NCBI GenBank assembly: GCA_035610835.1
Contig: CM069457.1
Coordinates: 17,764,149-17,828,148, forward strand
Source: Ophiura sarsii
Taxonomy: Eukaryota > Echinodermata > Ophiuroidea > Amphilepidida > Ophiuridae
Length of the DNA: 64,000 nt
Reading direction: 5' to 3'
Below the pieces are notes generated by a model. That model had not been told where the DNA came from and ran no database searches. It saw only the letters and a program-made list of their open reading frames with translations. Of the stretch, positions 26,030 through 49,723 are shown piece by piece. Position numbers and translations under genes: made by a program. Each line of letters begins with the position of its first letter. The stretch's first letter is position 1.

Positions 26030-27330
26030 CTATAGTTTGATCAGTTCTAAATTGGTGAAGCCTCCTTACAGCAGCGAATGGACACAGAAGGACGCAGACG
26101 TGTATGAAGGCAACAAGCATACTGTGCATCATATGGGTGATGCGTGCGTCGCCACCAAAACTGCACGTGTGTGGCCATAATCTCGCGCCAGGGTCAGAAA
26201 TTCGCGACCAAGTGCGAGAATCCATTGGATTCTCGCCGGGGGAATTTTGCGAGAATCTGGATTCTCGCAAATGGATTCTCGCAAAATGCATCTTCATTCA
26301 ATACGTGCGTGTCACGGGTACCCGTATCCCGTAAGTCTCACTCTCCGTGAATTCCCTCAAACACACCGGGAGTAGAGTTCAAGCCCAGCAATACCTGCAG
26401 AGTGCATTAACCAAATGTAGCATCGCGAAATGCGAAACACTTTAGAAGACTTTGCGATGCTAATGCACATTAATTTAGCAAAAGTGCGACGCAAAAAGAT
26501 TCCCTACTTGATCTCTGATTACGTAGCATCAAAGCCAAACCTACAAAGATTGAGTTTCATCTTCAAATAACTAGAAAAAGTATCATAAATCCTAAAGTAT
26601 TGGCAGTTAATATTTCGTTTTCGTCAGAGTTAAAAAACCCATTGGATTACATGTACCTGCGCAGCATTTTTTCTGTCGGTTTAAAATCGGTACAAAATGT
26701 CGGTTTCTGCGCATTTATAATCATGACGTCACTGTTTTGATGCTACATTAGTCTTGTTCTCAAGTCGCCGAGTGTTACGATTAGACTGTAACTCTCAGTC
26801 GCCCTCTTTCGTCGCTAGCTTGCAGGCTCCGACATTTAGTACAGCTTTTGCGGCCGTACGGTAATATTGAAGAATGGGGGATGTAGTATGTTACGATTTG
26901 GGAACGGCCGCATCCATCTGGACATTTTAATATTTCGGTGCACCATGGGCACAAAAGGAATCGAATCGAAACAACATGGCGCTTTGGTATTTCAATCGTG
27001 ACTCGAGCGATCAAATTTTAGCGATTTTTCAGAGCAAAATGAAGGTTGGTAAAGAAGACCTGTAACACAACGAATTAGCCACAACTTTGCATGATTTTTA
27101 CGCGAATCCAATGGATTCCCGTCAGTGATAATGTACGCGAATCTTTGCGCGAATGGATTCGCGGATTCGCGTCGAATTTCTGACCCTGCGCGCGTACACT
27201 TGGATTACTTTTGCGCACAGAGAGATAACAAACGATGACCGGTGCAGATATACACGCAGCTTTGGTAGCCAACTGCTTTCTTGGTGCCTTTCCAGCGGTA
27301 CTTTTACTTGCGGTTTGCTTAGTTCAAGCC
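26030..27330. mobile_element. CTATAGTTTGATCA-family element split by a later insertion
   Basis: The left part (ACTATAGTTTGATCAGTTC, TGTGTGGCCATAATC) and right part (TACACTTGGATTACTTTTGC, AGAGATAA) match the two halves of the 11988-12184 element in reverse. The 26189-27188 element interrupts it. The right terminus is not clear. Confidence 0.5.
26189..27188. mobile_element. Inverted-repeat element, 1.0 kb (CAGGGTCAGAAATTCGCG ends)
   Basis: The left CAGGGTCAGAAATTCGCG pairs with the right CGCGTCGAATTTCTGACCCTG apart from an insertion. Near both ends are ATTGGATTCTCGC-type and GAATGGATTCGCG segments. CGCGC occurs directly on both sides. The CAGGG ends suggest hAT, but the direct repeat seen is 5 bp and GC-simple. 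No transposase is visible. Confidence 0.65.
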
Positions 27331-27429
27331 ATTTCAGTTTGTTCATAGAGCAACGGTACGTACGTGTGACTATATACTAATGCTTCGGCCAAGGTCTAAC
27401 ACAGAGGATCCTGCCAGAATTCCCGCGCA

Positions 27430-27506
27430 CCAATCACATCATTGGACGCCCTCTCCGTCAGCTAGTATTTTTCACCGACGTCTGCATGGCATTCACTAAT
27501 ATATAA
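27430..27506 (+). promoter_or_regulatory. CCAAT/ATTGG and TATA elements upstream of the H4 start
   Basis: CCAAT (27430-27434) and ATTGG (27441-27445) lie about 70 bp and 55 bp upstream of TATATAA (27500-27506). The TATA box is 91 bp before the ATG. This spacing is plausible for a replication-dependent histone promoter. Confidence 0.55.
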
Positions 27507-27596
27507 GCCGCAGTCATCGCTGTATTCATTCATTCGCTAGCAGAGTTATATATTAACTACACAAGTGTAAGCACAATATATTCAAGTCTGTTCATC

Positions 27597-27749
27597 ATGT
27601 CTGGTCGAGGTAAAGGAGGCAAAGGACTAGGAAAAGGAGGTGCCAAACGACATCGTAAGGTGCTTCGTGGTAACATCCAATTTGGAACTGACCATCTTAT
27701 AAACCATCCACTTTGTTGTCAGTGTGATTTGCTCAGTGTATGGCAGTGA
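27597..27749 (+). pseudogene. Histone H4 5' fragment fused to unrelated codons (50-residue frame)
   Basis: The ATG opens [20 protein letters not shown] then KVLRGNIQ, identical to the histone H4 amino-terminal tail except Gly where H4 has Asp before NIQ. After codon 28 (27680) homology stops abruptly. The frame continues 22 codons ([13 protein letters not shown] and on) to TGA. The histone-fold residues are absent, so it cannot form a nucleosome core. The modifiable tail lysines 5, 8, 12, 16 and 20 are all present. CTTCGTG/GTAACA could be read as a splice donor, but the match to H4 continues past it and I found no second H4 exon before 31 kb. It is most likely a truncated copy of an H4 gene that kept its promoter. 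Confidence 0.8.
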
Positions 27750-31068: not shown

Positions 31069-31335
31069 TCATATTTGCTGCATTTTTTGCAAGTCTAACT
31101 GCGAAGGAACCTTGTTCATGGATTGATCCAATGCGCGCAGTAACTCCTCCCCTTGAAGTAAACCTCTGTTGTACAACGGCGCATTGACCTCCGCATCTAT
31201 CGTGTCAATCAGCGGCAAGGAATCACGACGCTCTATCTGGGGCGATGCGGCTTTAACGTCACATACTTGTTGGTACAGACCACCGCTAGCATCTAATTTC
31301 CCACCACCGTCTCCTTCTGAACTTTGACCCGAAAC
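31069..31335 (-). CDS. HIF-alpha terminal exon: C-terminal transactivation domain
   Basis: Acceptor ATACCACAG precedes 88 codons and TGA. The segment DTIDAEVNAPLYNRGLLQGE then ELLRALDQ aligns with the human CTAD, which reads CEVNAP...LLQGEELLRALDQVN. The Asn of EVNAP is the residue hydroxylated by the asparaginyl hydroxylase FIH in vertebrates. That hydroxylation blocks p300/CBP binding. The tail SMNKVPSQLDLQKMQQI extends beyond the vertebrate end. Confidence 0.95.
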   Translation of the reverse strand, partial: VSGQSSEGDGGGKLDASGGLYQQVCDVKAASPQIERRDSLPLIDTIDAEVNAPLYNRGLLQGEELLRALDQSMNKVPSQLDLQKMQQI

Positions 31336-33403: not shown

Positions 33404-36400
33404 AAGGAAGTCACTTTTTGAATTTTGTGAGTGCTGTAATTATTGAACTATGACTCAAATGAATATAAAAGTATACATTTTGGGGAAAGAAATAGGTCAA
33501 AGAATCCAAAATTTGGGTCAATTTTGACCACAAATGTTGATTATTTAAGAAAATCACACAAAAAAGACCCCAAAAAGTTCACAAAGCTAACAAAATATAA
33601 TTTTGAGTAAAACATTCCTAAATTGCTAGATTATGATGTAAAGACACTAACTTGGGGCAATTTTTTTTTTAAACCTAAGCTAATATTTTTGAAATATTGA
33701 CAAAAAAAGGTTTTGAAAAAGATTAGGTTTAAAAAAAAAAAATTGTCCCTAATTAGTGTCTTAATCATAATCTAACAATTTGGGAATTTTTTGTTGTTTA
33801 AATAAAATAATTTGTTTTAAATAATTAACAAAATACTTTTTGACTATATGTCAGTTTTACCTGTGAATTGTGCTTTAGGAGGCCAAAGATCCATAAGTGT
33901 TGGAACTTTCATTCCAGACGGGTCTCGGCTGATTTTACGCGCTGGCATTTCATCCATCATTGAACTCGACTTCCTCTTCAGCATGCTTTTCATACCGGAG
34001 GTCACAGTTGACGAAGCTCCCCCTCCGCCTCCAGGAATCGCCCCAGTCATTCTTTGTACTTGAGCAGTTCCGCCGGAAAACGCCAACAGGTTTCGTATTG
34101 GCGTCGTCAGGATCCTTTTATCCGGTGGGAGTGCGCTACTATGTTGTGGGGGTGTTGGGTACATCATCATGGGAGGGGAGTGCAATTCTGGCACACTACC
34201 ATTGAAGCTGCCATCGGTTGTGTTGTTTTCAATCGTGGGCGAAGCTGGTAACGGAGACACTACCGGGGTAATAAGATATGGGGTGGAGCATGCTGATAGG
34301 CTAGTGTTCCTAGAGGGTAAACAAAAAGATAAAATGACATCTAAATTAGGGATTGTGTAAACACGGCTGTTTGACTGTCCGATTTATAATTAAAATTATG
34401 GAATAAAAAAAGATAACACAGTGGCCCAGTTATGGTTTGAATACAAGTATACGGTGAAAATGTCATGAAAATTGTTCGAGCCATTTTTAAATTATCGGCA
34501 TTTTCTACTTTACACACATTTTACATGTAACTCTATGGGAAATGTGGCCGATGAGGGCGCTATTATAGTAAATAATAATATGCAAAGCTCTATTTCTCAG
34601 AAATGGCACCAACAAATGTTCTGAAATTTCTACAAAAGATGACCAGTATATTCAGGTACTTGAATAAGTTAAAACCAGAACCGGGCCAGCAAGTTACGGT
34701 GTTCTCAGAATAAAACGGACAAATTATGTGGGATCAAACAGCCGTGTAAATACTTCTCAAAATTTCAATGTATTAATTAAATTATCACATACATTCACAG
34801 TATCCGATTGATTTTAGCTATATGTGTGATAATTGTACATTACTTCTCCACCCAGTGTTTTTATAGAACTAAACTCGAACCCAAGCGCACAATGGATAAT
34901 GTGTGCATATTGTTCAGATCGATAATAATAATAATAATAATAGCGTTGCTTATATAGCGCTGTTCCAAAAATGATCACAGCGCTTAACAAAAGATAAAAC
35001 ATAAACAATACAATTTACCCCAGGCAACATACAAAAGTGAATGGAAAGAATGAGAAAGCCTAAAATGTACAGAAAATCAGTTACTAAACAAATGAGTCTT
35101 AAGATTATGTTTGAAGGTTATGATACTGTTGCTGGATCTTAATGTAGATGGGATGCTATTCCATAGTGTTGGGCCAGCCACAGCAAATGAGTTAGCTCCA
35201 ATGCGTTTATGGCTGGCTGGCAAAACAGCGATACTATAGATGCAATCGTTCAGGGAACGATAGTGAATATTTATTGATGACTTGTTGTTGTTAAGTTATT
35301 TTATCGACAGTTTTATCATGTATCTCGGCGACAGTTTTATCATTATACTCCAATCCTGGCCAGGTCAATGGTTCAACTCACACTAACCACTAACCTCTGT
35401 GAAATATATAGGGTGTATACGAAATACTGTGATTGACGCAGCCTAGATCTATTCTTAATTAGATACAAAATGTTCCTATTTGGGACCTTTAACTCAAATA
35501 TTCAAGTGAGTTTGTTTATGTAAACAATCATGTACAATATAACTATGACTCGATGTTATAAAAACAGATCCTGAATCTTGATTTCAAGGAAACTGAACGT
35601 GCATGTTTTGTTATGACACAATTTTCTTTACGATACTCTTCCTTTAATTCTGCTTGCATTCAAACTTAACCCCCTCTGAGCGAGGATTGTGTTTTTAACA
35701 CTCTACTTGTTAAGATTGACATTTTACCCAATAAGTCAAAATATTACTATTTCCTGCTTAAAATGAATAAGTTTGCTTGAATAGATTGCTTTTAAACTAT
35801 TATCACACAGGAAACATTAGTCAAATTGACATTTTCCAAATTTGTTTTGTCATGAACCACGGTCAGCCAACAAGAAGTTGAAATCACTCTAAGAGTCGCA
35901 CATATATGTTATAAACACTTAATTTAATATTCAATGCCATTTAAACTGTTAAAAAAAAACCTGATATTTTTTTTTAAAAATCTGACAAAAATCTGAAGAC
36001 AAAAATCAAAGCGGCCCTAAATCTGACGATCGGGCGGTCGAGGACAACATAACAATTTTTTGTTTGCCTTATCATGCAAGTGCGGTATTGTCCACTTACT
36101 TTCCGAATGGATTGACTGGAACCCATGACGTGTTTTCACTCATGAATGGTGTCGCTAATCCCTCGCAGCCAAGTTCAAAATCGTCTTCTAGCGGGATGAA
36201 CGGCGCCCTCATCTCCAGGTCATCAGGTACGGCCTTAACAGGTTCCTTTAGTTAAGAAGGGGAAAATATAATGGGAAAATGTATGGTTAAAGGAAGGGTC
36301 CCGCAAGCACAACATTGAACATTATTTGTTAGACAAATAATTATCGAGCCGAAATTACGTAATTATATATAACAAAACACCATACTAGTCACAAAAAATA

Positions 36401-39400
36401 AATAAAAACTGCCATCACTCAACATGCAATTTTTAAAATTCGCGGTGATCGAAAGTCCCGGTGTCGATAACGTCATGGATATCGGTGCTAAAATTTGCGC
36501 ATGTGCATTGTATAACTATGACATCATCGACACTGGGACTTTCGATCGCCGCGAATTTTAAAAAGTGCATGTTGAGAGATTGCGGTTTTTATTTGTTTTT
36601 GTCATAAGTGTGGTGTTTTGTTCTATATCATTACAAAAGTTGGGCTCGATAATTATTTTTGTAACATATTATGGACACTTTTATGTTTGCGGGACACCTC
36701 CTTTAAGACTGAATCATAAAACTGACTGCTGATTTGCCAGGATCAATTCCGTTATTCGCAATATAATAGGGAAATGTATGGTCAAGACTGAGTCATAAAA
36801 CTGACTGTTGATTTGCCAGGATCAATTCCCTTATTCGCAATATAATGGGGAAATGTATGGTCAAGACTTAATCATAAAACTGACTGTTGATTTGCCAGGA
36901 TCAATTCCCTTATTCGCAATATAATAGGGAAATGTATGGTCAAGACTTAATCATAAAACTGACTGTTGATTTGCCAGGATCAATTCCCTTATTCGCAATA
37001 TAATAGGGAAATGTATGGTCAAGACTGAGTCATAAAACTGACTGTTGATTTGCCAGGATCAATTCCCTTATTCGCAATATAATGGGGAAATGTATGGTTA
37101 AGACTTAATCATAAAACTGACTGTTGATTTGCCAGGATCAATTCCCTTATTCGCAATATAATAGGGAAATGTATGGTCAAGACTGAGTCATAAAACTGAC
37201 TGTTGATTTGCCAGGATCAATTCCCTTATTCGCAATATAATGGGGAAATGTATGGTCAAGACTTAATCATAAAACTGACTGTTGATTTGCCAGGATCAAT
37301 TCCCTTATTCGCAATATAATGGGGAAATGTATGGTCAAGACTGAATCATAAAACTGACTGTTGATTTGCCAGGATCAATTCCCTTATTCGCAATATAATA
37401 GGGAAATGTATGGTTAAGACTTAATCATAAAACTGACTGTTGATTTGCCAGGATCAATTCCCTTATTCGCAATATAATAGGGAAATGTATGGTCAAGACT
37501 GAGTCATAAAACTGACTGTTGATTTGCCAGGATCAATTCCCTTATTCGCAATATAATGGGGAAATGTATGGTCAAGACTTAATCATAAAACTGACTGTTG
37601 ATTTGCCAGGATCAATTCCCTTATTCGCAATATAATGGGGAAATGTATGGTCAAGACTGAATCATAAAACTGACTGTTGATTTGCCAGGATCAATTCCCT
37701 TATTCGCAATATAATGGGGAAATGTATGGTCAAGACTTAATCATAAAACTGACTGTTGATTTGCCAGGATCAATTCCCTTATTCGCAATATAATGGGGAA
37801 ATGTATGGTCAAGACTGAATCATAAAACTGACTGTTGATTTGCCAGGATCAATTCCCTTATTCGCAATATAATGGGAAATGTATGGTCAAGACTTAATCA
37901 TAAAACTGACTGTTGATTTGCCAGGATCAATTCCCTTATTCGCAATATAATAGGGAAATGTATGGTCAAGACTTAATCATAAAACTGACTGTTGATTTGC
38001 CAGGATCAATTCCCTTATTCGCAATATAATAGGGAAATGTATGGTCAAGACTGAGTCATAAAACTGACTGTTGATTTGCCAGGATCAATTCCCTTATTCG
38101 CAATATAATGGGGAAATGTATGGTTAAGACTTAATCATAAAACTGACTGTTGATTTGCCAGGATCAATTCCCTTATTCGCAATATAATAGGGAAATGTAT
38201 GGTCAAGACTGAGTCATAAAACTGACTGTTGATTTGCCAGGATCAATTCCCTTATTCGCAATATAATGGGGAAATGTATGGTCAAGACTTAATCATAAAA
38301 CTGACTGTTGATTTGCCAGGATCAATTCCCTTATTCGCAATATAATGGGGAAATGTATGGTCAAGACTGAATCATAAAACTGACTGTTGATTTGCCAGGA
38401 TCAATTCCCTTATTCGCAATATAATAGGGAAATGTATGGTTAAGACTTAATCATAAAACTGACTGTTGATTTGCCAGGATCAATTCCCTTATTCGCAATA
38501 TAATAGGGAAATGTATGGTCAAGACTGAGTCATAAAACTGACTGTTGATTTGCCAGGATCAATTCCCTTATTCGCAATATAATGGGGAAATGTATGGTCA
38601 AGACTTAATCATAAAACTGACTGTTGATTTGCCAGGATCAATTCCCTTATTCGCAATATAATGGGGAAATGTATGGTCAAGACTGAATCATAAAACTGAC
38701 TGTTGATTTGCCAGGATCAATTCCCTTATTCGCAATATAATGGGGAAATGTATGGTCAAGACTTAATCATAAAACTGACTGTTGATTTGCCAGGATCAAT
38801 TCCCTTATTCGCAATATAATGGGGAAATGTATGGTCAAGACTGAATCATAAAACTGACTGTTGATTTGCCAGGATCAATTCCCTTATTCGCAATATAATG
38901 GGAAATGTATGGTCAAGACTTAATCATAAAACTGACTGTTGATTTGCCAGGATCAATTCCCTTATTCGCAATATAATAGGGAAATGTATGGTCAAGACTG
39001 AGTCATAAAACTGACTGTTGATTTGCCAGGATCAATTCCCTTATTCGCAATATAATGGGGAAATGTATGGTCAAGACTTAATCATAAAACTGACTGTTGA
39101 TTTGCCAGGATCAATTCCCTTATTCGCAATATAATGGGGAAATGTATGGTCAAGACTGAATCATAAAACTGACTGTTGATTTGCCAGGATCAATTCCCTT
39201 ATTCGCAATATAATGGGGAAATGTATGGTCAAGACTTAATCATAAAACTGACTGTTGATTTGCCAGGATCAATTCCCTTATTCGCAATATAATGGGGAAA
39301 TGTATGGTCAAGACTGAATCATAAAACTGACTGTTGATTTGCCAGGATCAATTCCCTTATTCGCAATATAATAGGGAAATGTATGGTCAAGACTGAATCA

Positions 39401-42400
39401 TAAAACTGACTGTTGATTTGCCAGGATCAATTCCCTTATTCGCAATATAATAGGGAAATGTATGGTCAAGACTGAATCATAAAACTGACTGTTGATTTGC
39501 CAGGATCAATTCCCTTATTCGCAATATAATAGGGAAATGTATGGTCAAGACTTAATCATAAAACTGACTGTTGATTTGCCAGGATCAATTCCCTTATTCG
39601 CAATATAATGGGGAAATGTATGGTCAAGACTTAATCATAAAACTGACTGTTGATATGCCAGGATCAATTCCCTTAATCGCAATATAATAGGGAAATGTAT
39701 GGTCAAGACTGAATCATAAAACTGACTGTTGATTTGCCAGGATCAATTCCCTTATTCGCAATATAATAGGGGAATGTATGGTCAAGACTGAGTCATAAAA
39801 CTGACTGTTGATTTGCCAGGATCAATTCCCTTATTCGCAATATAATAGGGAAATGTATGGTCAAGACTGAATCATAAAACTGACTGTTGATTTGCCAGGA
39901 TCAATTCCCTTATTCGCAATATAATAGGGAAATGTATGGTCAAGACTTAATCATAAAACTGACTGTTGATTTGCCAGGATCAATTCCCTTATTCGCAATA
40001 TAATGGGGAAATGTATGGTCAAGACTTAATCATAAAACTGACTGTTGATTTGCCAGGATCAATTCCCTTATTCGCAATATAATAGGGAAATGTATGGTCA
40101 AGACTGAATCATAAAACTGACTGTTGATTTGCCAGGATCAATTCCCTTATTCGCAATATAATGGGGAAATGTATGGTCAAGACTTAATCATAAAACTGAC
40201 TGTTGATTTGCCAGGATCAATTCCCTTATTCGCAATATAATAGGGAAATGTATGGTCAAGACTGAATCATAAAACTGACTGTTGATTTGCCAGGATCAAT
40301 TCCCTTATTCGCAATATAATAGGGAAATGTATGGTCAAGACTGAATCATAAAACTGACTGTTGATTTGCCAGGATCAATTCCCTTATTCGCAATATAATG
40401 GGGAAATGTATGGTCAAGACTGAATCATAAAACTGACTGTTGATTTGCCAGGATCAATTCCCTTATTCGCAATATAATGGGGAAATGTATGGTCAAGACT
40501 TAATCATAAAACTGACTGTTGATTTGCCAGGATCAATTCCCTTATTCGCAATATAATGGGGAAATGTATGGTCAAGACTGAGTCATAAAACTGACTGTTG
40601 ATTTGCCAGGATCAATTCCCTTATTCGCAATATAATAGGGAAATGTATGGTCAAGACTTAATCATAAAACTGACTGTTGATTTGCCAGGATCAATTCCCT
40701 TATTCGCAATATAATGGGGAAATGTATGGTCAAGACCGAGTCATAAAACTGACTGTTGATTTGCCAGGATCAATTCCCTTATTCGCAATATAATGGGGAA
40801 ATGTATGGTCAAGACTGAGTCATAAAACTGACTGTTGATTTGCCAGGATCAATTCCCTTATTCGCAATATAATAGGGAAATGTATGGTCAAGACTGAATC
40901 ATAAAACTGACAGTTGATTTGCCAGGATCAATTCCCTTATTCGCAATATAATAGGGAAATGTATGGTCAAGACTGAATCATAAAACTGACTGTTGATTTG
41001 CCAGGATCAATTCCCTTATTCGCAATATAATAGGGAAATGTATGGTCAAGACTGAATCATAAAACTGACTGTTGATTTGCCAGGATCAATTCCCTTATTC
41101 GCAATATAATAGGGAAATGTATGGTCAAGACTGAATCATAAAACTGACTGTTGATTTGCCAGGATCAATTCCCTTATTCGCAATATAATGGGGAAATGTA
41201 TGGTCAAGACTGAATCATAAAACTGACTGTTGATTTGCCAGGATCAATTCCCTTATTCGCAATATAATAGGGAAATGTATGGTCAAGACTTAATCATAAA
41301 ACTGACTGTTGATTTGCCAGGATCAATTCCCTTATTCGCAATATAATAGGGAAATGTATGGTCAAGACTTAATCATAAAACTGACTGTTGATTTGCCAGG
41401 ATCAATTCCCTTATTCGCAATATAATGGGGAAATGTATGGTCAAGACTGAGTCATAAAACTGACTGTTGATTTGCCAGGATCAATTCCCTTATTCGCAAT
41501 ATAATAGGGAAATGTATGGTCAAGACTGAATCATAAAACTGACTGTTGATTTGCCAGGATCAATTCCCTTATTTTTTTGTTTTAGAGGAAGCTTTCACAG
41601 AAAACTGCCTTAATACTTTCCACGCGGCAGGCAGCTGCAGACGACATTCCAAAAATTCACAAAATGTTTAAAAAAAATTCAACATTATTGAATTTCATTA
41701 CCATATTTGGAAACACCATGAGAAATGCATTGAAATAAGTACAAACGTGCCTAGTATTGGGTCAGGAATCATTGAAAATTGTGAAAGGTTTCTGAAAAAT
41801 CTGTTTTGTGTATGGTAGAAATAATAGCCACGTGGAAAGTGTTAAACACCTGTTTACTTGACATCAGACAGAATAGAACTAACATGAAGACATTTCAATC
41901 TTGGGGAATAAGGTCTATCGCAAATAGATAAAAATAAATTTATTATCCTGTTCTGATGCATTGTGGGATAGAAAAGTGGGCAAATTTGCCCACTTTTTGA
42001 AGGATAATCAATTGATTTTTACCTATTTGCAATAAAGTCTATTCCCTAATGAACTGGCTGTTCAGAGTGATGCTGCCCCTTTAAACCAAAACCAAAATGT
42101 ACAGGTAAACTACCTTGCCAGGTAGGTCCCTTTAGTTTAGAGAACAAATACAGGAAAAAATTCAGGTCAGACTGGATACCAAAACTGATTTTCCAGCATC
42201 TATTTCCCTATTTTTGTTATGACCATATCCGCTTAGCTATGAAATCCAAAAAATCTGATTTAAATCAAATAAATCCGACTTCGTTTAAGAAAATGAATTA
42301 AACAAATTGCCAATCCTGCGCAATGATGAATACTATTCCAAAATCAATAATCTTAATCAATTCAATTCATGGAAGAGCATACAATATCCACCGTATTTAT

Positions 42401-45400
42401 AAAGTATATATTGGTTTACAAGTACTTGAGATTTTCAAATAACAATTCTAAATGCGTCATGACATTTTAAAACTATTGATGCTGTCGAATCAGTTTCAGT
42501 GTAAGTACCCTTTTTGAACCTTTTACAACTGTAAACGTGGCCATATTGCGCTACATTCATTTTCGTGCTTTTCGCGTTCCAAGCACCTACCGCGAAAATA
42601 AAAACATGCAAACATATTTATTTTGTGTATAAGTCTATGACTTGAACTTTCAAATCGCAAATTTTAAAACAAGCAAAATGGATGAAAGTCGGCACAGCGC
42701 AAAAATGTAACCGCGCAAAAATTACCACTTTAAAAGTGCTGTAAATTAACCAAAATTTGGATCAAACCAGGTTGTATTGGTATACTTTCAAGCAACATAC
42801 TACAGTAATCCTAATGCTTTGTTGGCAGGGGAGGGGTTTCTTTTTAATACGAGTATACTGTAAAAGTGGCAATTTTCATGCATTTTATTTTTTGCGCTTT
42901 GCTGATTATTAACCGTTTTACATGTTTTTAAATTAGCAATTTGTAGCTTCATCACATAGACCTGTACTCAAAATATATTATATCCTTGTGTTATTTTATT
43001 TTACACACCAACAGCGGTTGTATGCGTCGTTCTTAAAAATCATGCACTATGAATACCCCTGTGAAGGGTATAACAGAATTACTCCTATTTTGTGGTAGCT
43101 GCTAGAGCGCAAAAAGTGCGAAAATAAATGTAACACAAATATTTTGACTTTTACAGTACATTCATACATTTAATATTAACCTACCCATTTCTTATCCTGG
43201 GTCTGAAGGAGAGTTGGTCTTGAGTTTGGCAGGAGGGGGTCCTTGCTGCTTGTTAATATTGAGCTGCTGATTGGCAGGTCTACAGCGGGTGGGGGTGGTG
43301 TGTAGTAGCCCTCCTGTATCAATACACAAAATTAAGAATAGGATCAGATTAGGATATAGAAATACTTTAACACAAATAAAAACATAGAAACCCTTGAACT
43401 ATGAAGAACAAGGAAAGAGTTGTTGAGATCAGGGTTCGAATTCGACTGTATCGCATCGCAAAATGTGATGCAAAATTGAGTAATTGCGCCTCAATTCTAT
43501 ACCTTGCATCGCAAAATATGCGATGCATAATTGTTCTACATAAATCCATGATCATGCAGACTTGCTTATCTACGTAAACAGTAAAGAATATTCCCTTTCC
43601 GATCCAGGTTTTTTTTCTCGGTTTACTTTCTAGAAACGTTGTCGTATTTTATTTCTCCTTCGAGGGGATCAATAATTGCTACCCCTGAATCGCTATTTGC
43701 GCCTGTGGGGGAATTACTTTCTAGAAACGTCGTCATAATTTCCTTCAAGCGGATCAATAATTGCTACCCCTGAATGGCTACTGCGCATGCGGACATCACT
43801 TATATTTTATTTACATCGCATATGTTTTATAGGGAATGGCTAGGGAAAATCCCTAAAAAAAACCAGCTGCTATTTACATCGGCAATTTGATGATGATGAT
43901 GGATAAACAATACGAGTACATGTTATAAGCCCGTATAGAATGACTCGTGTCATGTAAGAGAAATAACACAGGATAACTCATGCCTAAAATTAATTGGAAT
44001 AGAATCAAAATTATGAAACTTCTCTGCCAGGAATAACTTGCACAATTAATATGTTGTCATGTAGGAAAGAGAATCGGACTAGTAAAAGTAAGCTTATTTG
44101 CTTTTTAAAATCACGTTTTTCCCGGCGCCCGGTGAAAAAGGAAAGAACTGCTATACAAAGCATATTTTGTTTAGGAAAAAACTGTGGTTGGACTTGCTAT
44201 GCAAAACAAACTTTGTGTAGCAGTTTCTGCTATGCAAAAGAAATCCCCGAATTCGAACCCTAGTCTACAGCAGGTGTCGGTGGTGTGTAAGTAGCCATTG
44301 ACACAATTTGATACAAAGATTGATATGGGTTAGATGGAGTAGATAAGCATGGATGTGATTGAGGTTTTAAAACAAATGCTGAACTCACGGCCAGGTCCAG
44401 GGGTTATTTCATGCTTAAAAATGCAATCTTTTACATATTTGGTAAGGAAAACAAAGAAACCTCACCCCAAAAACAAAAAACAAAAAACAAAAACAAAAAA
44501 CATATCATTATGTTACTTTTTTTGGTCATGATCTCTTTTTTTAGGCCAAATATCTGGAAATCGGGAAAAATTCAGAGAAATCACACCACTGGATAAGGAT
44601 AGAAATACTTCAGATCAGGGTATAGAATTTGGAAACACTAATGCATACACAATTTTAAAAAGGTTGCCATACTGCCAACTACATTTGGTTATCGACCTTG
44701 CACATTTCTAATCTAGGTTCTTCAAATTGATAACATAATACAAAAACATTCCTATCAAATCAGATCAATATTGTATCATCATTTACTCAAGATTATTTGT
44801 ATTTGCATTATATTTGCAAATCTTCACCTGTATTGTATAGAAGTGAAGATTAAACAATACAGTTACACAGTTTATCAGACGCTGTACAATTTTTATTTTT
44901 ATTATTTAAATTTAAGAAATTTACCAATTTTGGTGGTTCCCTGCCCAAATCAGCATCATCAATGGTAGTAAGCTTATTGTCATCCCCAAACGGAGCAAAC
45001 GGATCAAATGGCACAAACATGAATCCATTCGATACGTCATCATCATCGTCTGAGGTTGACAACTCCGGGATATTGAGGGCGCTTTCACTCTCAGTTTTAC
45101 AGTCTTGGTTCTGTGGCTGTATATCACCTGTAGGGAGAACAGTAAAACATACATCAACATTCTTGTTATCTCTGACACATCATCACAGGTTTTTATTGAT
45201 TTATGCCTTCTTTATTGAGGGTAATATGCTACAGTGACTTGCACTGCTTTCAAAGCAGGTCCTCATTTCGATACATAAATACATACATACAAATAACAAA
45301 TGTTACAGTGTTGAAATATAATACAAATTATAATACAAATCATGATATTATTCAATTATGATACAGTGGGGATAGAGGATTTGAATTGACTGAGTGACAT

Positions 45401-48400
45401 ATTTTCTAAATCAATACGAATAGATGGTGATAAATTGTTCCACAAATGGCTAGATCTGAAAACAAAAGTGTGCATACCAGAATTTGAGTTGATTTTAGGA
45501 ATGATTAGGAATGATTAGTATTACTTGAATGATTCCTGGTAGTATATTTTGGAGATAAACCTGTCAAGAGGAGTAAACTGGCTAAATACTGGGGGAGGGG
45601 AACCGGATCTATGGATGTCGGGTATTAAACCCCAGTGGCCACCATGGGGGTGTGAATCAATGAGGCAAAACTTTTTTGTTGGGTTGCCCTCAGCGACCGA
45701 CCTAAAATCTCAAAAGTCAGGGTCGCAATTTTCTTTAAGATTTAAATTTTACCCAATTTGTCAAAATATTAATATTTTCTGCTTCAAATGAGGTAAGTTT
45801 GCTTGAATAGATTGCTTTACCGTTTTTGTCAGTAATATTTGTCAACAAAGAAAAAGAAGGAAAAAAAAGGAAAACCAACCGACCAATCCGACTAAGATTT
45901 TTGGCACTTGAGGGTAACACAACAACAAGTAAACAGGCCTGACTGCTTTATCACATGAAATGCATTACAAACACAAAGATGGTGGATATGGTATATACAG
46001 GGTGTATCATAAAAAATGCAACAATTTTTGCTTTGAATTATACTCTTAGGTAAAATCACCTATCAGCCTAAAAAGCAAAAATTATGTAAGCCCTTAGCCT
46101 TTGGTATGGTTGTAAAATTTGAGCAATATCGGCCAGTAATTGATTGAGATTAATGATCAATTGTGATAGGCCTAATGCCTTTCTTGATCGGTTATCTCCC
46201 CGAACCCCACCCTTCCCCTTCCAACTAAAAGCCCTTGATTCTATAGCCAACTCACATTGTAGTTTTCCCAGTAAGTTCATGAGTTGATCTTCATCATCCG
46301 AGCCTGCCACTGGTGCCAGACTTACAAGCCTTTCTTGATCAGCCATCTCTTCTCTTTCATCTTCATCATCATCATCATCATCATCTGTAATTATAGAAAA
46401 TAGACACAGACACGTTACAAACTAAACAGATACTTATAACCATATACAGTGTTTGAATGGTCACCTGTGCTTTGCCCTGAGCATATCACTCAGGTAGGGT
46501 TGGTGGGGCTGGCCTTTTCCCCCAACATTTGGAAAATGTTAATTAATTTTCATGGAATTTTAAAATTAAAAAAATGTTAAAATAAATTGCACAACAAAAA
46601 AGAAAAATATTTCCATATTTTTCTTTTCTAAAAAACCCAGAACATTTGAAGAAAAAAACAAAAACATGGGTGGGTTGAGCCCGTAGAACAGGGTTTTTAT
46701 GTAGCCTAAGTAATAAACAGCTAAAGGCCATTGCCCTTCTCCTTCCTAAACATGGTAGTCTTAAACATGGTAGAGAACAAAAATAGAGGCTTTTATATAA
46801 GTGAGGCATACTGGTATTGCTAAGGAAATCTTGTCGGGGTACACATTAACACTTTCCACGCGTCTGCAGACGACAGTTCCAAAATTCCACAAAAAGATTC
46901 AAAAATGTCAAAAGTATTTAATCTCATCACTATATTTGGAATCACCATGAGAAATGCATTAAAATAAGTACAAACATGCCCTAGTATTGGTTCCGTAATT
47001 CTTGAGACAGACTTTGAAAATTGGGAAAGGTTTTAATGGTAAAACTAATAGCCGTGTGGAAAGTGTTAAGATAGCTGCGAAATTGAATACATATTTCAGT
47101 TGGCTCAACCACTCCCGAATTGCGAATTAGATCAGCTTAGTGAATACTATTTGTATGCTGGAGAAATAGACTGACTATAATATAGACAGGCAAACACACA
47201 GACAGACAGACAGTGTGCAAAGTTCAGCAGATGCGGTTTCAATGTCATTTACAGACCTAGATTTGTGGGGTGATTTCACAGAACAGAACATTGATATTAT
47301 CTTTTTAATCATTGAGTGGAAAATAGTCTGCATACAATATTCAAAAAATTCAATATTATATACTTTTCTTGGAAGCCATAACAACAAGCCCACATCATTT
47401 TCTGTAGTATCTTTCTTAGAAGTAAGCATTGCCCCTGTACATGAGCTGTATTCCTTTGTATCATCTTGGGAGTCCTCACAGCCTCTGTACTCAGCTGCAT
47501 CCCTATATTAACATCTGATTAGTATCTCACTCCCCTTCCACCAATCCCCCTCCCAGCCGCTAAGCGTCCCTCCCCTGGGGTGGCATACAACTTCTCTTAC
47601 CTTCAGCCAAGGCAAACTACAACGACAAGTCCACCTCATCTTCTGTAGTATCTGTTTTTGGAGACAGTACAGCCTCAGTTGTATTCCTGTGTTAAGCTTA
47701 CGGGTACCCCTCCCTTTTTTCCCTCCCCCACCTAGATAAACCATATCGTTACCTTCAGCCGAGGCAAGCCACAACGACAAGTCCACCTCATCTTCTGTAG
47801 TATCTGTTTTTGGAGTCAGCACAGCCTCAGTTGTATTCCTGTGTTAAGCTTACGGGTCCCCTCCCTCCCCCTTCCTTTCTCCCCTCTACCATCTAGATAA
47901 ACCATATCATTACCTTCAGCCGAGGCAAGCCACAACGACAAGTCCACCTCATCTTCCATAGTATCTGTCTTTGGAGTCAGCACAGCCTCTGTACTAAGCT
48001 GTATTCCTGTGTTAAGCTTACGGGTACCCCTCCCTCCTCCCCCCCCCCCCCCCCCCCCCCACCACCTAGATAAACCATATCATTACCTTCAGCCGAGGCA
48101 AGCCACAACGACAAGTCCACCTCATCTTCCATAGTATCTGTCTTTGGAGTCAGCACAGCCTCTGTACTCAGTTGTATTCCTGTGTTAAGCTTACGGGTAC
48201 CCCTCCCTCCTCCCCCCCCCCCCCCCCCCCCCCACCACCTAGATAAACCATATCATTACCTTCAGCCGAGGCAAGCCACAACGACAAGTCCACCTCATCA
48301 TCCGTAGTATCTGTCTATAGAGTCAGCACAGCCTCTGTACTCAGCTGTATTCCTGTGTTAAGCTTACGTGTACCACTCCCTCCTCCCCCCCACCACCTAG

Positions 48401-49723
48401 ATAAACCATATCATTACCTTCAGCCGAGGCAAGCCACAACGACAAATCCACCTCATCATCCTTCGTATCTGTCTTTAGAGTCAGCACAGCCTTTGTACTC
48501 AGCTGCATCCCTATATTTATCATCTGATGAGTATCTCCCTCCCCTACCACCACCCCCCTCCGAGCCGCTAAGCATCCCCTCCCCTGGTGTGGCATACAAC
48601 TTCTCCTACCTTCAACCAAGGAAAGCCACAATGACAAATCTTTGGAGTCAGCACAGCCTCTGTACTCATCTGTATTCCTATGTTAAGCTTACATGTACCT
48701 CTCCCTTTCTCCCCACCACCTAGATAAACCATATCGTTACCTTCAGCCGAGGCAAGCCACAATGACAAGTCCACCTCATCATCCATAGTATCTGTCTTTG
48801 GAGTCAGCACAGCCTCAGTGTGTTAAGCTTACGGGTACCCCTCCCTCCCCCTCCCTTACTCCCCTCTACCACCTAGATAAACCATATCGGTACCTTCAGC
48901 CGAGGCAAACCACAAAGACAAGTCCACCTCATCTTCCGTCATATCTGTCTTTGGAGTCAGCACAGCCTCTGTACTCAGTTGCATTCCTGTGTTAAGCTTA
49001 CAGGTACCCCTCTCTCCCCTCCCACCGCCTAGATAAACCATATCGTTACCTTCAGCTGAGGCAAGCCACAACAACAAGTCCACCTCATCATCCGTAGTAT
49101 CTGTCTTTGGAGTCAGCACAGCCTCTGTACTCAGCTGCATCCCTATATTATCATCTGATGAGTATCTCCCTCCCCTACCACCACCCCCTAAGCGTCCCCT
49201 CCCCTGGTGTGGCATACAACTTCTCCTACCTTCAGCTGAGGAAAGCCACAATGACAAATCTTTGGAGTCAGCACAGCCTCGGTATTCAGTTGTATTCATG
49301 TGTTAAGCTTACAGGTACCCCTCCCCCTTCCCCACCTAGATAAACCATATCATTACCTTCAGCAGAGGCAAGCCACAATGACAAGTCCACCTCATCATCC
49401 ATAGTATCTGTCTTTGGAGTGAGCACAGCCTCTGTACTCAGTTGTATTCCTGTGTTAAGCTTATAGGTACCCCTCCCCCTTCCCCACCTAGATAAACCAT
49501 ATAATTACCTTCAGCCGTGGCAAGCCACAAAGACAAGTCCACCTCATCATCCGTCGTATCTGTCTTTGGAGTCAGCACAGCCTCTGTACTGAGTTGTATT
49601 CCTGTGTTAGCAGTATCATCATATTCCTCCTTGGTACTACCATTGATCTGTTGTTGTGTATTAGCTGATGCTTCAGATATCTTCTGATCAATGGAAAGTA
49701 TCGCGCCATCATCCTCAATAGCA
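31069..49723 (-). CDS. Hypoxia-inducible factor alpha (HIF-alpha), C-terminal portion
   Basis: Minus-strand exons with matching phases encode the oxygen-sensing and transactivation half of HIF-alpha, the bHLH-PAS transcription factor that is hydroxylated and destroyed in normoxia. In protein order: a 215-nt exon and its duplicated cassettes (49723-47601); an N-terminal degradation motif ERLVSLAPVAGSDDED (46256-46384); an acidic linker (44925-45127); a Pro-rich linker (43185-43313); a C-terminal degradation motif DDLEMRAPFIPLEDDFEL (36100-36245); a Ser/Pro-rich linker with basic patches LKRK and PARK (33861-34309); MGLSRLLIQPQ (33130-33272); and the transactivation domain DAEVNAPLYNRGLLQGEELL then RALDQ (31069-31335). 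All borders are GT/AG and all phases agree. The bHLH and PAS exons must lie beyond the repeats upstream; I found none to 64 kb. Vertebrate HIF-1alpha ends at ALDQVN, whereas this protein continues about a dozen residues. Confidence 0.93.
31433..31653. mobile_element. Miniature inverted-repeat element in the last HIF intron
   Basis: AACCTTGTATCTCC and CCAGCCCTTCAGCATGTATA at the left pair with TATACATGCTGAAGGGCCGG and TACAAGGT at the right. Confidence 0.7.
31745..31822 (+). tRNA. tRNA-like sequence (SINE head or pseudogene)
   Basis: GCCTCTG at about 31746 can pair with CAGAAGC at the 3' side in six of seven positions. AACAATTGGTAAGAG resembles a D arm and GGTTCGAATC is a B box. The anticodon arm is poor. 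A dispersed tRNA-derived repeat is more likely than a working tRNA. Confidence 0.45.
32356..32802. mobile_element. TA-flanked miniature element (CACTCGTCAAAAGAAGTTC ends)
   Basis: CACTCGTCAAAAGAAGTTC and GAACTTCTTTTGACGAGTG are perfect inverted repeats flanked by TA. At about 445 bp it is mariner-type and non-autonomous. An AT palindrome (ATATATAATTATATAT) lies near the right end. Confidence 0.85.
32846..33056. repeat. TTTCGCGAGGGAT-family repeat
   Basis: This is a second copy of the 2615-2826 repeat, with TTTCGCGAGGGATACAG and AAATGCCCGCTAAA, ending TTTTACAGTAA. It is 74 bp from a HIF exon. Confidence 0.6.
33130..33272 (-). CDS. HIF-alpha exon (MGLSRLLIQPQHQ)
   Basis: Acceptor ATTCCTGCAG and donor GTAAGTTG border 143 nt encoding AQNPSGPYTTMGLSRLLIQP, then QHQISAGVNTGG and FAEVLQQFARN. 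The segment MGLSRLLIQP resembles the VGIGTLLQQP segment that precedes the CTAD in human HIF-1alpha. Confidence 0.88.
33367..33840. repeat. G run followed by a foldback-family fragment
   Basis: A G run of about 33 bases is followed by sequence related to the inner arm of the 1-1494 foldback (AGGAAGTCACTTTTTGAATT, TATAAAAGTATACATTTT). An internal palindrome pairs AAAGACACTAA with TTAGTGTCTT. Confidence 0.7.
33861..34309 (-). CDS. HIF-alpha exon: Ser/Pro-rich linker with basic patches
   Basis: Acceptor ACCCTCTAG and donor GTAAAACT border 449 nt, phase 2 to phase 1. It encodes a low-complexity linker (VVSPLPASPTIENNTTDGS, HSPPMMMYPTPPQHS, a GGGGGA stretch) and the basic segment GMKSMLKRKSSSMMDEMPAR then KISRD. 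That segment could be the C-terminal nuclear localisation signal, which is bipartite and basic in vertebrate HIF-alpha (inference). Confidence 0.9.
34362..34746. mobile_element. CACGGCTGTTTGA miniature element with TAAA target duplication
   Basis: CACGGCTGTTTGA and TCAAACAGCCGTG are perfect terminal repeats, flanked by TAAA on both sides. A near-identical copy lies at 61127-61534, flanked by ATCA. A third, decayed half copy starts near 10979. Ends starting CAC with 4-bp duplications suggest the Chapaev (CMC) group (inference). Confidence 0.85.
34921..35275. repeat. Short interspersed repeat starting (AATA)n/GCGTTGCTTATATAGCGC
   Basis: A TAA/AATA run is followed by GCGTTGCTTATATAGCGCTG, CACAGCGCTTAACAAAAG and TGGGATGCTATTCCATAGTG. 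This layout recurs as fragments at 30418 and 45390, so it is a dispersed repeat in a HIF intron. Confidence 0.55.
36100..36245 (-). CDS. HIF-alpha exon: C-terminal oxygen-dependent degradation motif
   Basis: Acceptor TTAACTAAAG and donor GTAAGTGG border 146 nt, phase 0 to phase 2. The product EPVKAVPDDLEMRAPFIPLE continues DDFELGCEGLATPFM. It aligns with human DLDLEMLAPYIPMDDDFQL, whose Pro in LAP is hydroxylated by PHD2 and then bound by VHL. Here the motif reads LEMRAP, so the Leu two residues before the acceptor Pro is Arg (codon AGG). The acceptor Pro and the downstream IP and acidic residues are kept. Confidence 0.95.
36258..41572. repeat. 79-bp satellite array in a HIF intron, about 62 units
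   Basis: A 79-bp unit (CATAAAACTGACTGTTGATT, TGCCAGGATCAATTCCCTTA, TTCGCAATATAATAGGGAAA, TGTATGGTC) repeats head to tail from 36703 to 41572. Units differ mainly at two spots: GAGTC/TAATC/GAATC, and AATAGGG/AATGGGG/AATGGG. Each unit holds a small dyad (TTCCCTTATT facing AATAGGGAA). A partial unit (36258-36290) begins only 13 bp from the exon carrying the degradation motif. It is separated from the main array by an inserted element. A 13-unit block is duplicated perfectly (36863-37888 and 37889-38914, 1026 bp each). Confidence 0.97.
36291..36702. mobile_element. TTAA-targeted element inserted in a satellite unit
   Basis: AGGAAGGGTCCCGCAA and TTGCGGGACACCTCCT form imperfect ends. Long inner repeats pair TCGCGGTGATCGAAAGTCCC with GGGACTTTCGATCGCCGCGA. 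TTAA lies on both sides (36287-36290, 36703-36706). The flanks join to TATGG-TTAA-GACTGAATC, which matches the satellite variant TATGGTTAAGACTT seen in uninterrupted units. Confidence 0.85.
41610..41845. mobile_element. TTAA-flanked miniature element (ACTTTCCACGCGG ends)
   Basis: TTAATACTTTCCACGCGGC and CCACGTGGAAAGTGTTAA are the ends. Same family as 28139-28375. It lies 37 bp beyond the right end of the 79-bp array. Confidence 0.8.
41904..42048. mobile_element. Short palindromic element (GGAATAAGGTCTATCGCAAATAG)
   Basis: The left GGGAATAAGGTCTATCGC pairs with the right GCAATAAAGTCTATTCCC. TTATCCT...TGCATTGTGGGA lies inside. A related palindrome lies at 63728-63909. Confidence 0.7.
42528..43158. 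repeat. Two miniature elements of the TACTGTAAAAGT family
   Basis: One diverged copy spans about 42528-42735 (CGCGCAAAAATTACCACTTT at the right). A second spans 42856-43158, with TACTGTAAAAGTGGCAATTTT and ACTTTTACAGTA ends and an internal insertion. Both are in the HIF intron. Confidence 0.65.
43185..43313 (-). CDS. HIF-alpha exon: Pro-rich linker
   Basis: Acceptor GTATTGATACAG and donor GTAGGTTA border 129 nt in phase 0-0. It encodes EGYYTPPPPAVDLPISSSIL, then TSSKDPLLPNSRPTLLQTQ. A partial duplicate of its 5' part lies at 44264-44300. Confidence 0.8.
43431..44261. mobile_element. Inverted-repeat element (AGGGTTCGAATTCG ends)
   Basis: AGGGTTCGAATTCG and CGAATTCGAACCCT are perfect 14-bp terminal repeats. 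Internal segments are repeated (TTACTTTCTAGAAACG, GGATCAATAATTGCTACCCC). No transposase frame is recognised. Its right end abuts a partial copy of the neighbouring HIF exon. Confidence 0.75.
44264..44300 (-). pseudogene. Partial duplicate of the HIF Pro-rich exon
   Basis: GCTACTTACACACCACCGAC then ACCTGCTGTAGAC on the minus strand matches the 5' part of the 43185-43313 exon (GGCTACTACACACCACCCCC then ACCCGCTGTAGAC) with one inserted base. No AG acceptor precedes it. The copy stops where the 43431-44261 element begins. Confidence 0.6.
44925..45127 (-). CDS. HIF-alpha exon: acidic linker
   Basis: Acceptor CCCTACAG and donor GTAAATTT border 203 nt, phase 1 to phase 0. It encodes IQPQNQDCKTESESALNIPE, then LSTSDDDDDVSNGFMFVPFD and PFAPFGDDNKLTTIDDADLG. 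The acidic and aromatic composition is typical of the intrinsically disordered region between the two degradation motifs. Phases match both neighbours. Confidence 0.88.
45200..46000. other. HIF intron with dispersed-repeat fragments
   Basis: The segment at about 45300-45540 (TGTTCCACAAATGGCTAGATC) resembles the end of the 34921 repeat. CAGGGTGTATCATAAAAAATGC at about 45998 looks like one end of a TA-type element with no partner seen. No exon is recognised. Confidence 0.4.
46256..46384 (-). CDS. HIF-alpha exon: N-terminal oxygen-dependent degradation motif
   Basis: Acceptor TATAATTACAG and donor GTGAGTTG border 129 nt, phase 1 to phase 1. It opens with a (GAT)n run coding six Asp, then EDEREEMADQERLVSLAPVA and GSDDEDQLMNLLGKLQ. 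LVSLAP is a full LxxLAP prolyl-hydroxylation motif, equivalent to LTLLAP of human HIF-1alpha. The phase-1 start accepts any number of upstream 93-nt cassettes. Confidence 0.93.
46846..47069. mobile_element. TTAA-flanked miniature element (CACTTTCCACGCG ends)
   Basis: TTAACACTTTCCACGCG and CGTGTGGAAAGTGTTAA are the ends, with GTCTGCAGACGACAGTTCC inside. It lies in the HIF intron between the cassette array and the degradation-motif exon. Confidence 0.85.
47367..47502 (-). pseudogene. Decayed composite cassette copy
   Basis: After AATATAG, GGATGCAGCTGAGTACAGAG begins a partial cassette that runs into a second full but diverged copy (GAATACAGCTCATGTACAGG). The second copy has one extra base and no matching GTAATG donor, so the cassette frame is lost. 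This is the most diverged member. Confidence 0.7.
47601..47686 (-). pseudogene. Broken cassette (7-nt deletion and stop)
   Basis: It is 86 nt long because 7 nt are missing after GAATACAACTGAG, and the Trp codon TGG has become TAG. It has the best donor in the array (AAG/GTAAGAG). Confidence 0.8.
47753..47838 (-). pseudogene. Broken cassette (7-nt deletion)
   Basis: It shares the 7-nt deletion of the 47601-47686 copy but keeps TGG. At 86 nt it would shift the frame if spliced in. Confidence 0.8.
47914..48006 (-). CDS. Intact HIF cassette exon
   Basis: This is a 93-nt phase 1-1 exon with acceptor CTTAACACAG and donor GTAATGAT. It encodes GIQLSTEAVLTPKTDTMEDE then VDLSLWLASAEG. Confidence 0.7.
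48087..48179 (-). CDS. Intact HIF cassette exon
   Basis: This 93-nt exon encodes the same peptide as the 47914-48006 copy. The intron separating the two is 80 nt and contains a homopolymer of about 20 C (plus strand). Confidence 0.7.
48260..48352 (-). pseudogene. Cassette with in-frame stop
   Basis: It is 93 nt with good splice sites, but CCA-AAG has become CTA-TAG, so the cassette frame reads VLTL then stop. Confidence 0.8.
48418..48510 (-). CDS. Intact HIF cassette exon (second acceptor type)
   Basis: Acceptor GATAAATATAG precedes GGATGCAGCTG. It encodes GMQLSTKAVLTLKTDTKDDE then VDLSLWLASAEG in 93 nt. It pairs with the 68-nt copy at 48610-48677, as 49050-49142 pairs with 49230-49297. Confidence 0.65.
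48610..48677 (-). pseudogene. Cassette with 25-nt deletion
   Basis: It lacks the codons for TDTTDDEV and is 68 nt long, so splicing it in shifts the frame. Its acceptor is AACATAG. Confidence 0.75.
48741..48818 (-). pseudogene. Cassette that lost its acceptor
   Basis: A deletion joins CTTAACAC directly to CTGAGGCTG, removing the AG and the first codons. The rest of the cassette and its donor GTAACGAT remain. Confidence 0.8.
48894..48986 (-). CDS. Intact HIF cassette exon
   Basis: This 93-nt exon encodes GMQLSTEAVLTPKTDMTEDE then VDLSLWFASAEG. Acceptor CTTAACACAG is normal. The donor reads GTACCGAT, a weaker variant. Confidence 0.65.
49050..49142 (-). CDS. Intact HIF cassette exon (second acceptor type)
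   Basis: Acceptor GATAATATAG precedes GGATGCAGCTG. It encodes GMQLSTEAVLTPKTDTTDDE then VDLLLWLASAEG. The 63-nt intron to the next cassette has no stop in frame. Confidence 0.65.
49230..49297 (-). pseudogene. Cassette with 25-nt deletion and mutated acceptor
   Basis: The acceptor AACACAG has become AACACAT and the same 25 nt are missing as in 48610-48677. An uninterrupted frame nonetheless runs from here through the next two cassettes and their introns (to 48856). Confidence 0.75.
49357..49449 (-). CDS. Intact HIF cassette exon
   Basis: The first duplicate after the parent exon encodes GIQLSTEAVLTPKTDTMDDE then VDLSLWLASAEG. Only 59 nt separate it from the parent exon, which is short for an animal intron. 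Confidence 0.7.
49509..49723 (-). CDS. HIF-alpha parent exon of the cassette array
   Basis: Acceptor CTCCCCATAG and donor GTAATTAT border 215 nt, starting with the last base of a split codon and ending in phase 1. It encodes AIEDDGAILSIDQKISEASA, then NTQQQINGSTKEEYDDTANT, then the cassette peptide ending DEVDLSLWLATAEG. The coding bases GCTAACACAG before the cassette part closely match the acceptor GCTTAACACAG of the duplicates. This is the most upstream HIF exon I can find. Confidence 0.85.

Follow-up and report, generated by a model that had tools for sequence, protein, structure and literature searches.

Background

Dscam is the type case of an alternatively spliced tandem exon duplication. 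The array of partial exons described below resembles tandem exon duplications that are spliced alternatively or in a mutually exclusive way (PMC9013439), in that copies of a coding exon lie within one gene, have donors of their own and share a compatible phase. It differs from these systems because only the 3' part of an exon has been copied, so that the true acceptor is lacking, and because half of the units are broken, units could be joined in series and the array is seen in genomic DNA. A second group of related structures are intronic minisatellites and tandem partial-exon duplications, with which the array shares its step size, its turnover, a G-run of variable length, deletions common to several units and a relic at its end; unlike them, it holds six units that lie in codon frame and have an excess of third-position changes. 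The introns between the units can be compared to human G-rich ultrashort introns with very poor splice sites, exemplified by those of NDOR1 (49 nt) and ESRP2 (43 nt; PMC8363638). Both are very short and G-rich with a poor acceptor and branch site, but the brittle-star introns measure 59-99 nt, are seen in DNA only and belong to a distant lineage. As human G-rich introns of 43-49 nt with very poor sites have been reported (PMC8363638), the splicing of such cassette introns is not impossible.

The gene that carries the array encodes the alpha subunit of HIF. Ambulacrarian HIF-alpha proteins (Amphiura filiformis, Asterias, Diadema, hemichordates) have in common with it the bHLH-PAS part, the NODD region, a CODD of the RAP type and the C-TAD, but they hold one copy of the stretch that is arrayed here. 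To our knowledge, the architecture of HIF-alpha is very stable across animals. A natural series of copies of a single conserved stretch, placed directly ahead of the first hydroxylation site, would offer a dose series for the element concerned. If used, the array would show a minisatellite acting as a source of exons although no acceptor was copied; left unused, it would be a clean example of exon ends caught in minisatellites, which are easily mistaken for cassette exons.

Methods

The window is the complete 64,000-nt stretch of Ophiura sarsii DNA that was analysed (C17:17764149-17828148), taken from an assembly of 1.57 Gb in 748 contigs. All coordinates are given in the window frame, values above 64000 lying beyond the window. 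HIF exons were located by tblastn, using a human HIF1A sequence as query. The alignment and tree comprise 14 ambulacrarian sequences, all HIF, being the draft protein of the present gene and 13 relatives. Splice sites were scored with a matrix of human frequencies, and percentiles are taken over the 10,741 minus-strand AGs of 214 kb.

Results and discussion

The HIF-alpha gene and its relatives

The 3' half of the gene lies on the minus strand of the window, while the PAC, PAS-B, PAS-A and bHLH exons lie outside it, up to position 148014. Its naming as HIF-alpha in the initial annotation proved right: the C-TAD profile PF08778 scores above its cut-off and the bHLH, PAS-A, PAS-B and CODD exons are all on the same strand. 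The bHLH and the two PAS domains follow each other in order, in exons that tblastn found between 148013 and 64758; the PAS-B part also exceeds the cut-off of the PAS_11 profile, bHLH and PAS-A being placed by tblastn. Both proline motifs are present, LVSLAPVAG in the NODD and LEMRAPFIP in the CODD (exons 9 and 11 in Table 1). Exon 8, the parent of the array, joins the PAC exon in frame and aligns with the stretch behind PAC in ambulacrarian HIFs. The draft of the gene is incomplete, since the first exon is absent, exon 3 contains a one-base frame break and the junction of exons 12 and 13 is out of phase; a small exon or a different boundary may be missing there.

Table 1. Exons of the 3' half of the HIF-alpha gene and units of the tandem array, in order of transcription (window coordinates)
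Feature	Position	Strand	Description
Exon 8 (parent)	49509..49723	-	phase 2 in, phase 1 out; acceptor TTCTCCCCATAG, donor AAG/GTAATT; its final 93 nt (49601-49509) form the unit of the array
u1	49357..49449	-	intact 93 nt, open, AG/GT, phase 1-1
u2	49230..49297	-	broken: 25-nt deletion, AG lost
u3	49050..49142	-	intact 93 nt, phase 1-1; other acceptor type (ATATAG)
u4	48894..48986	-	intact 93 nt, phase 1-1; weakest donor (4.3)
u5	48741..48816	-	broken: start and acceptor deleted
u6	48610..48677	-	broken: 25-nt deletion of u2, frameshift; AG and GT kept
u7	48418..48510	-	intact 93 nt, phase 1-1; ATATAG acceptor
u8	48260..48352	-	broken: in-frame TAG; AG and GT kept
u9	48087..48179	-	intact 93 nt, AG/GT, phase 1-1
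u10	47914..48006	-	intact 93 nt, phase 1-1; protein identical to u9
u11	47753..47838	-	broken: 7-nt deletion, frameshift, stop; AG and GT kept
u12	47601..47686	-	broken: 7-nt deletion of u11 and TAG in original frame; AG and GT kept; strongest donor of the array (11.1)
Relic	about 47360..47508	-	decayed; one or two older units
Exon 9	46256..46384	-	N-terminal degradation motif LVSLAPVAG; phase 1 in, phase 1 out
Exon 10	44925..45127	-	FVPFDPFAPFGDDNKL, resembles FVPFDPFAPLIDDNKL of Amphiura HIF
Exon 11	36100..36245	-	C-terminal degradation motif DLEMRAPFIPLEDDFEL; tblastn with human HIF1A
Exon 12	33861..34309	-	open frame and splice sites
Last coding exon	31069..31335	-	HIF C-terminal transactivation domain; PF08778, 3.9e-10

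The frame break of exon 3 (146177-145982) lies within an otherwise conserved stretch and is either a sequencing error or real.

In the tree, the draft protein pairs with the sequence of the ophiuroid Amphiura at a FastTree support of 1.0, and Amphiura HIF is also its closest match among 8000 scored candidates from the protein database (47 percent identity across 96 percent of the draft's length). A second HIF-alpha did not turn up in the genome: of the 14 matches to Amphiura filiformis HIF (P0001), 10 fall in the present gene and four elsewhere, the latter (35-43 percent identity) looking like other PAS genes, and identity is at most 84 percent in any piece among the matches listed. The RAP form of the CODD is common to the echinoid, asteroid, hemichordate and Amphiura proteins that were aligned, and YAP is found in Leptosynapta, Stichopus and P0013. 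In P0001, a predicted protein, the NODD motif lacks its LxxLAP form, which the window gene has kept.

The stretch that is repeated here occurs as a single copy in each of the 13 aligned relatives. It is kept in them, with STE in 11 of 13 and, three residues further, an F in all 13, where this gene has L. None of the best 120 HIF proteins among 1774 hits repeats a segment internally within residues 330-620 (at 14 of 24 identical). Proteins of 118-376 aa that contain a cassette were looked for among 321 candidates, with no match at E 0.001; neither the 8000 nor the 321 candidates yielded a protein of this species. In the open-licence literature, nothing on echinoderm or brittle-star HIF appeared among the titles listed, and no repeated HIF exon among the listed titles and starts of abstracts. 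That literature likewise yielded nothing joining HIF, tandem repeat and cassette exon, nothing on exonization together with minisatellites, and nothing joining HIF, echinoderm and oxygen-dependent degradation.

A tandem array in the intron ahead of the NODD exon

A segment made up of the final 93 nt of exon 8, the adjoining donor and the first part of the intron recurs in tandem within the intron from 49508 to 46385 (minus strand), as 12 copies and a relic. In a repeat search a 68-nt core appeared in 12 register copies (47373-49589, parent and relic counted in), TRF called two overlapping arrays over 47597-49609, and whole-genome blastn with the unit returned 13 matches, all at the HIF-alpha locus (parent and 12 copies). 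These counts agree with the initial annotation, which had described about 13 copies of the 3' part of an exon with its short intron, and at least six duplicates that, like the parent, keep a 93-nt open frame with AG acceptor and GT donor in phase 1-1. There are exactly six such duplicates among the 12 (u1, u3, u4, u7, u9 and u10). It had also correctly recognised the parent exon, which lies at 49723-49509, and the position of the array just ahead of the NODD motif, and the next exon does begin in phase 1. Its conclusion that cassettes can be added in frame without limit was too free, however, as four units with both AG and GT (u6, u8, u11 and u12) break the frame and the acceptors are weak.

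The unit peptide of u9 and u10, GIQLSTEAVLTPKTDTMEDEVDLSLWLASAE, has seven acidic residues and one basic residue. The introns that separate the units are G-rich. Read-through of the short intron of the parent itself leads to a stop in the next unit, whereas that from u3 to u4 and some others stay open. The intron between u3 and u4 (within 49142-48894) is 63 nt long, and its retention would join both units in frame. An RNA fold of one 426-nt stretch of the array was no better than that of shuffled sequences (z 0.55).

Unit steps are mostly 152-173 nt, and the variable G-run, the deletions common to several units and the terminal relic make up a pattern of head-to-tail units with homogenisation and length variation, as in an intronic minisatellite. 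The repeat is far beyond chance; phase 1-1 taken by itself would be roughly a one-in-three event. The eight full-length units differ from each other by 7.8 percent on average. Since the intron borders (divergence 0.054 and 0.070) are overall as conserved as the exon part (0.078), recent copying accounts for much of the likeness of the units. Moreover, six of the 12 units are broken and certain of these forms were duplicated in turn (u2/u6, u11/u12), which indicates that breakage was not filtered.

Strength of the splice sites

Under the human-frequency matrix, the acceptors of the ten units with an AG score -2.3 to 1.6 bits, at the 38th-71st percentile of AGs. The gene's own 13 acceptors, among which are two probably allelic pairs and from which the unplaced acceptor of exon 3 is left out, reach 5.5-12.2 bits by the same matrix (93rd to 99.9th percentile), and none of the ten cassette acceptors attains the lowest of these 13. 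The weakness of the cassette acceptors is explained by the copied unit being derived from the interior of an exon, the real acceptor never having been included. Donors are good: 12 of the 13 in the array, parent included, score 7.4 to 11.1 (u4 being the exception), compared to 5.4 to 11.6 for twelve other donors of the gene.

Changes by codon position

When substitutions are placed on a tree that includes all 13 units, trees of recombining repeats being unsafe, third codon positions take 17 of 26 changes (nominal P 0.0008) in intact lineages, i.e. those with at least one intact unit, and 8 of 19 (P 0.28) in broken-only lineages. With root changes removed these counts become 14 of 22 and 8 of 19, and under the strictest filter, which removes CpG columns as well as root changes, 10 of 13 (P 0.001) and 4 of 12 (P 0.55). 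Across the four filter variants the excess in intact lineages has a nominal P of 0.0008 to 0.0035. As it survives removal of the changes on the parent split, the parent alone is not its source. In 60 bootstrap trees without root changes, third positions hold a share of 0.67 (0.59-0.72) in intact lineages, against 0.45 (0.37-0.55) in broken ones.

Independently of any tree, the six intact cassettes have 16 variable columns, of which 10 are third positions (nominal P 0.016; 10 of 17 with the parent, P 0.027), and the six broken units have 20, of which 9 are third positions (P 0.19). Only 2 of 2000 neutral simulations, which do not match the number of variable columns, reach the share of 10/16. 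Over all pairs of the eight full-length units, parent and u8 included, pS is 0.157 and pN 0.051. The direct contrast between intact and broken units is weak (Fisher 0.142, 0.057, 0.217 and 0.047 in the four variants). The decayed relic leans towards third positions as well (9 of 16 differences), and the lean may therefore reflect past rather than present coding. Taken together, the intact units appear to carry a modest sign of translation, be it present or past.

Is the array used?

We put a probability of roughly 0.45 on the reading that the intact cassettes are translated, now or recently, in a minority of transcripts, with a main transcript that skips the array. What the sequence shows is tandem copying, with turnover, of the end of exon 8 (93 nt), the donor and the intron start inside the 3.1-kb intron, and six of the units can still serve as in-frame cassettes of 31 codons. 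The main transcript would join exon 8, or an early unit, directly to the NODD exon, which we infer from the weak cassette acceptors. In the minority transcripts the short G-rich introns would be spliced and intact units included, adding one or a few acidic/hydrophobic 31-residue units before the first degradation motif. Inclusion of a broken unit shifts or stops the frame, so that the choice of units would have to be selective. Any effect of the cassettes on HIF stability or activation is a guess only. Of the length forms that the initial annotation had proposed, the six in-frame units and the modest lean in third codon positions speak in favour, but the free inclusion of cassettes does not hold in view of the weak acceptors and the frame-breaking units. 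That the units form a selectable array, from which cells make HIF forms with varying numbers of units before the NODD by way of the 59-99-nt G-rich introns and so tune degradation or activation, would go further and seems doubtful.

Use in a minor isoform is slightly likelier than no use at all, the latter being a tenable account in which a duplication in an ordinary intronic minisatellite happened to take in the end of an exon, the 3.1-kb intron is invariably spliced out with the whole array in it and the open frames are leftovers of copying. The weak acceptors fit such disuse, and so does the frequency of tandem arrays at this locus, where 23 of period at least 60 were counted in 214 kb, 10 of them inside the HIF-alpha gene. 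One of these consists of four extra copies of the exon 6 tail, together with the donor and the beginning of the intron (period 131, 71274-71819), in which, judged by eye, a CACAG inside the copied tail would break the frame; no such copies adjoin the exon 6 at 108983. The tail of exon 3 has a single decayed copy with stops at 145925-145822 (85 percent identical). Two of the 10 arrays in the gene touch an exon (random mean 1.14, P 0.32), and since chance would account for this much contact, an ordinary origin suffices for the array. Disuse is harder to reconcile with the third-position excess in intact lineages, which is weaker or absent in broken ones, and with the fact that 6 of the 12 units are still phase-symmetric; working units may have been kept after an ordinary origin. 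At seven PAS loci no tandem copy of the exon that overlaps the match was found, except at L009, where an exon and the adjoining stretch match at 73 percent, the position of the match being assumed from 1.5-kb flanks.

An improbable alternative is a regulatory decoy in the style of a poison exon, by which good donors combined with weak acceptors divert the splicing of exon 8 to unproductive messages and so set the level of HIF-alpha. The row of strong donors would suit this role, as would the four units that have AG and GT yet break the frame, and the stop met on read-through of the parent's short intron. A decoy predicts no codon constraint on intact units, however, the broken units look random, and some short introns, such as that from u3 to u4, are open on read-through. 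Very improbable is an artefact of the assembly, by expansion of the array or misjoining. A false duplication is likely nearby, in collinear blocks across a 100-N gap, and exon 3 has its one-base frame break; on the other hand, the full-length units diverge from one another, the window contains no N, the array is found at one place in the genome only and, with 2.3 kb, it is short for long reads, if long reads were used.

Assembly context and other observations

The regions 60527-98350 and 99190-142593 are largely collinear, in pieces of 72-95 percent identity, and flank the 100-N gap at 98734-98833. Each holds one PAS-B exon pair (71864/64897 and 108983/102491), the pairs having 9 differences in complete codons, 8 of them synonymous. 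The blocks are most likely two haplotypes of one region placed side by side in the assembly. An interpretation of the PAS-B exon pairs as duplicated alternative exons was rejected, though not disproved, the blocks lying collinear on both sides of a scaffold gap.

A COX1-family search had no match at E 0.001. Within an intron of the HIF-alpha gene, 36705-41573 is occupied by a satellite of 79 nt, present in 62 copies that are 97 percent alike. At 27078-27746 there are open frames that, by eye, resemble fragments of histones H3 and H4.
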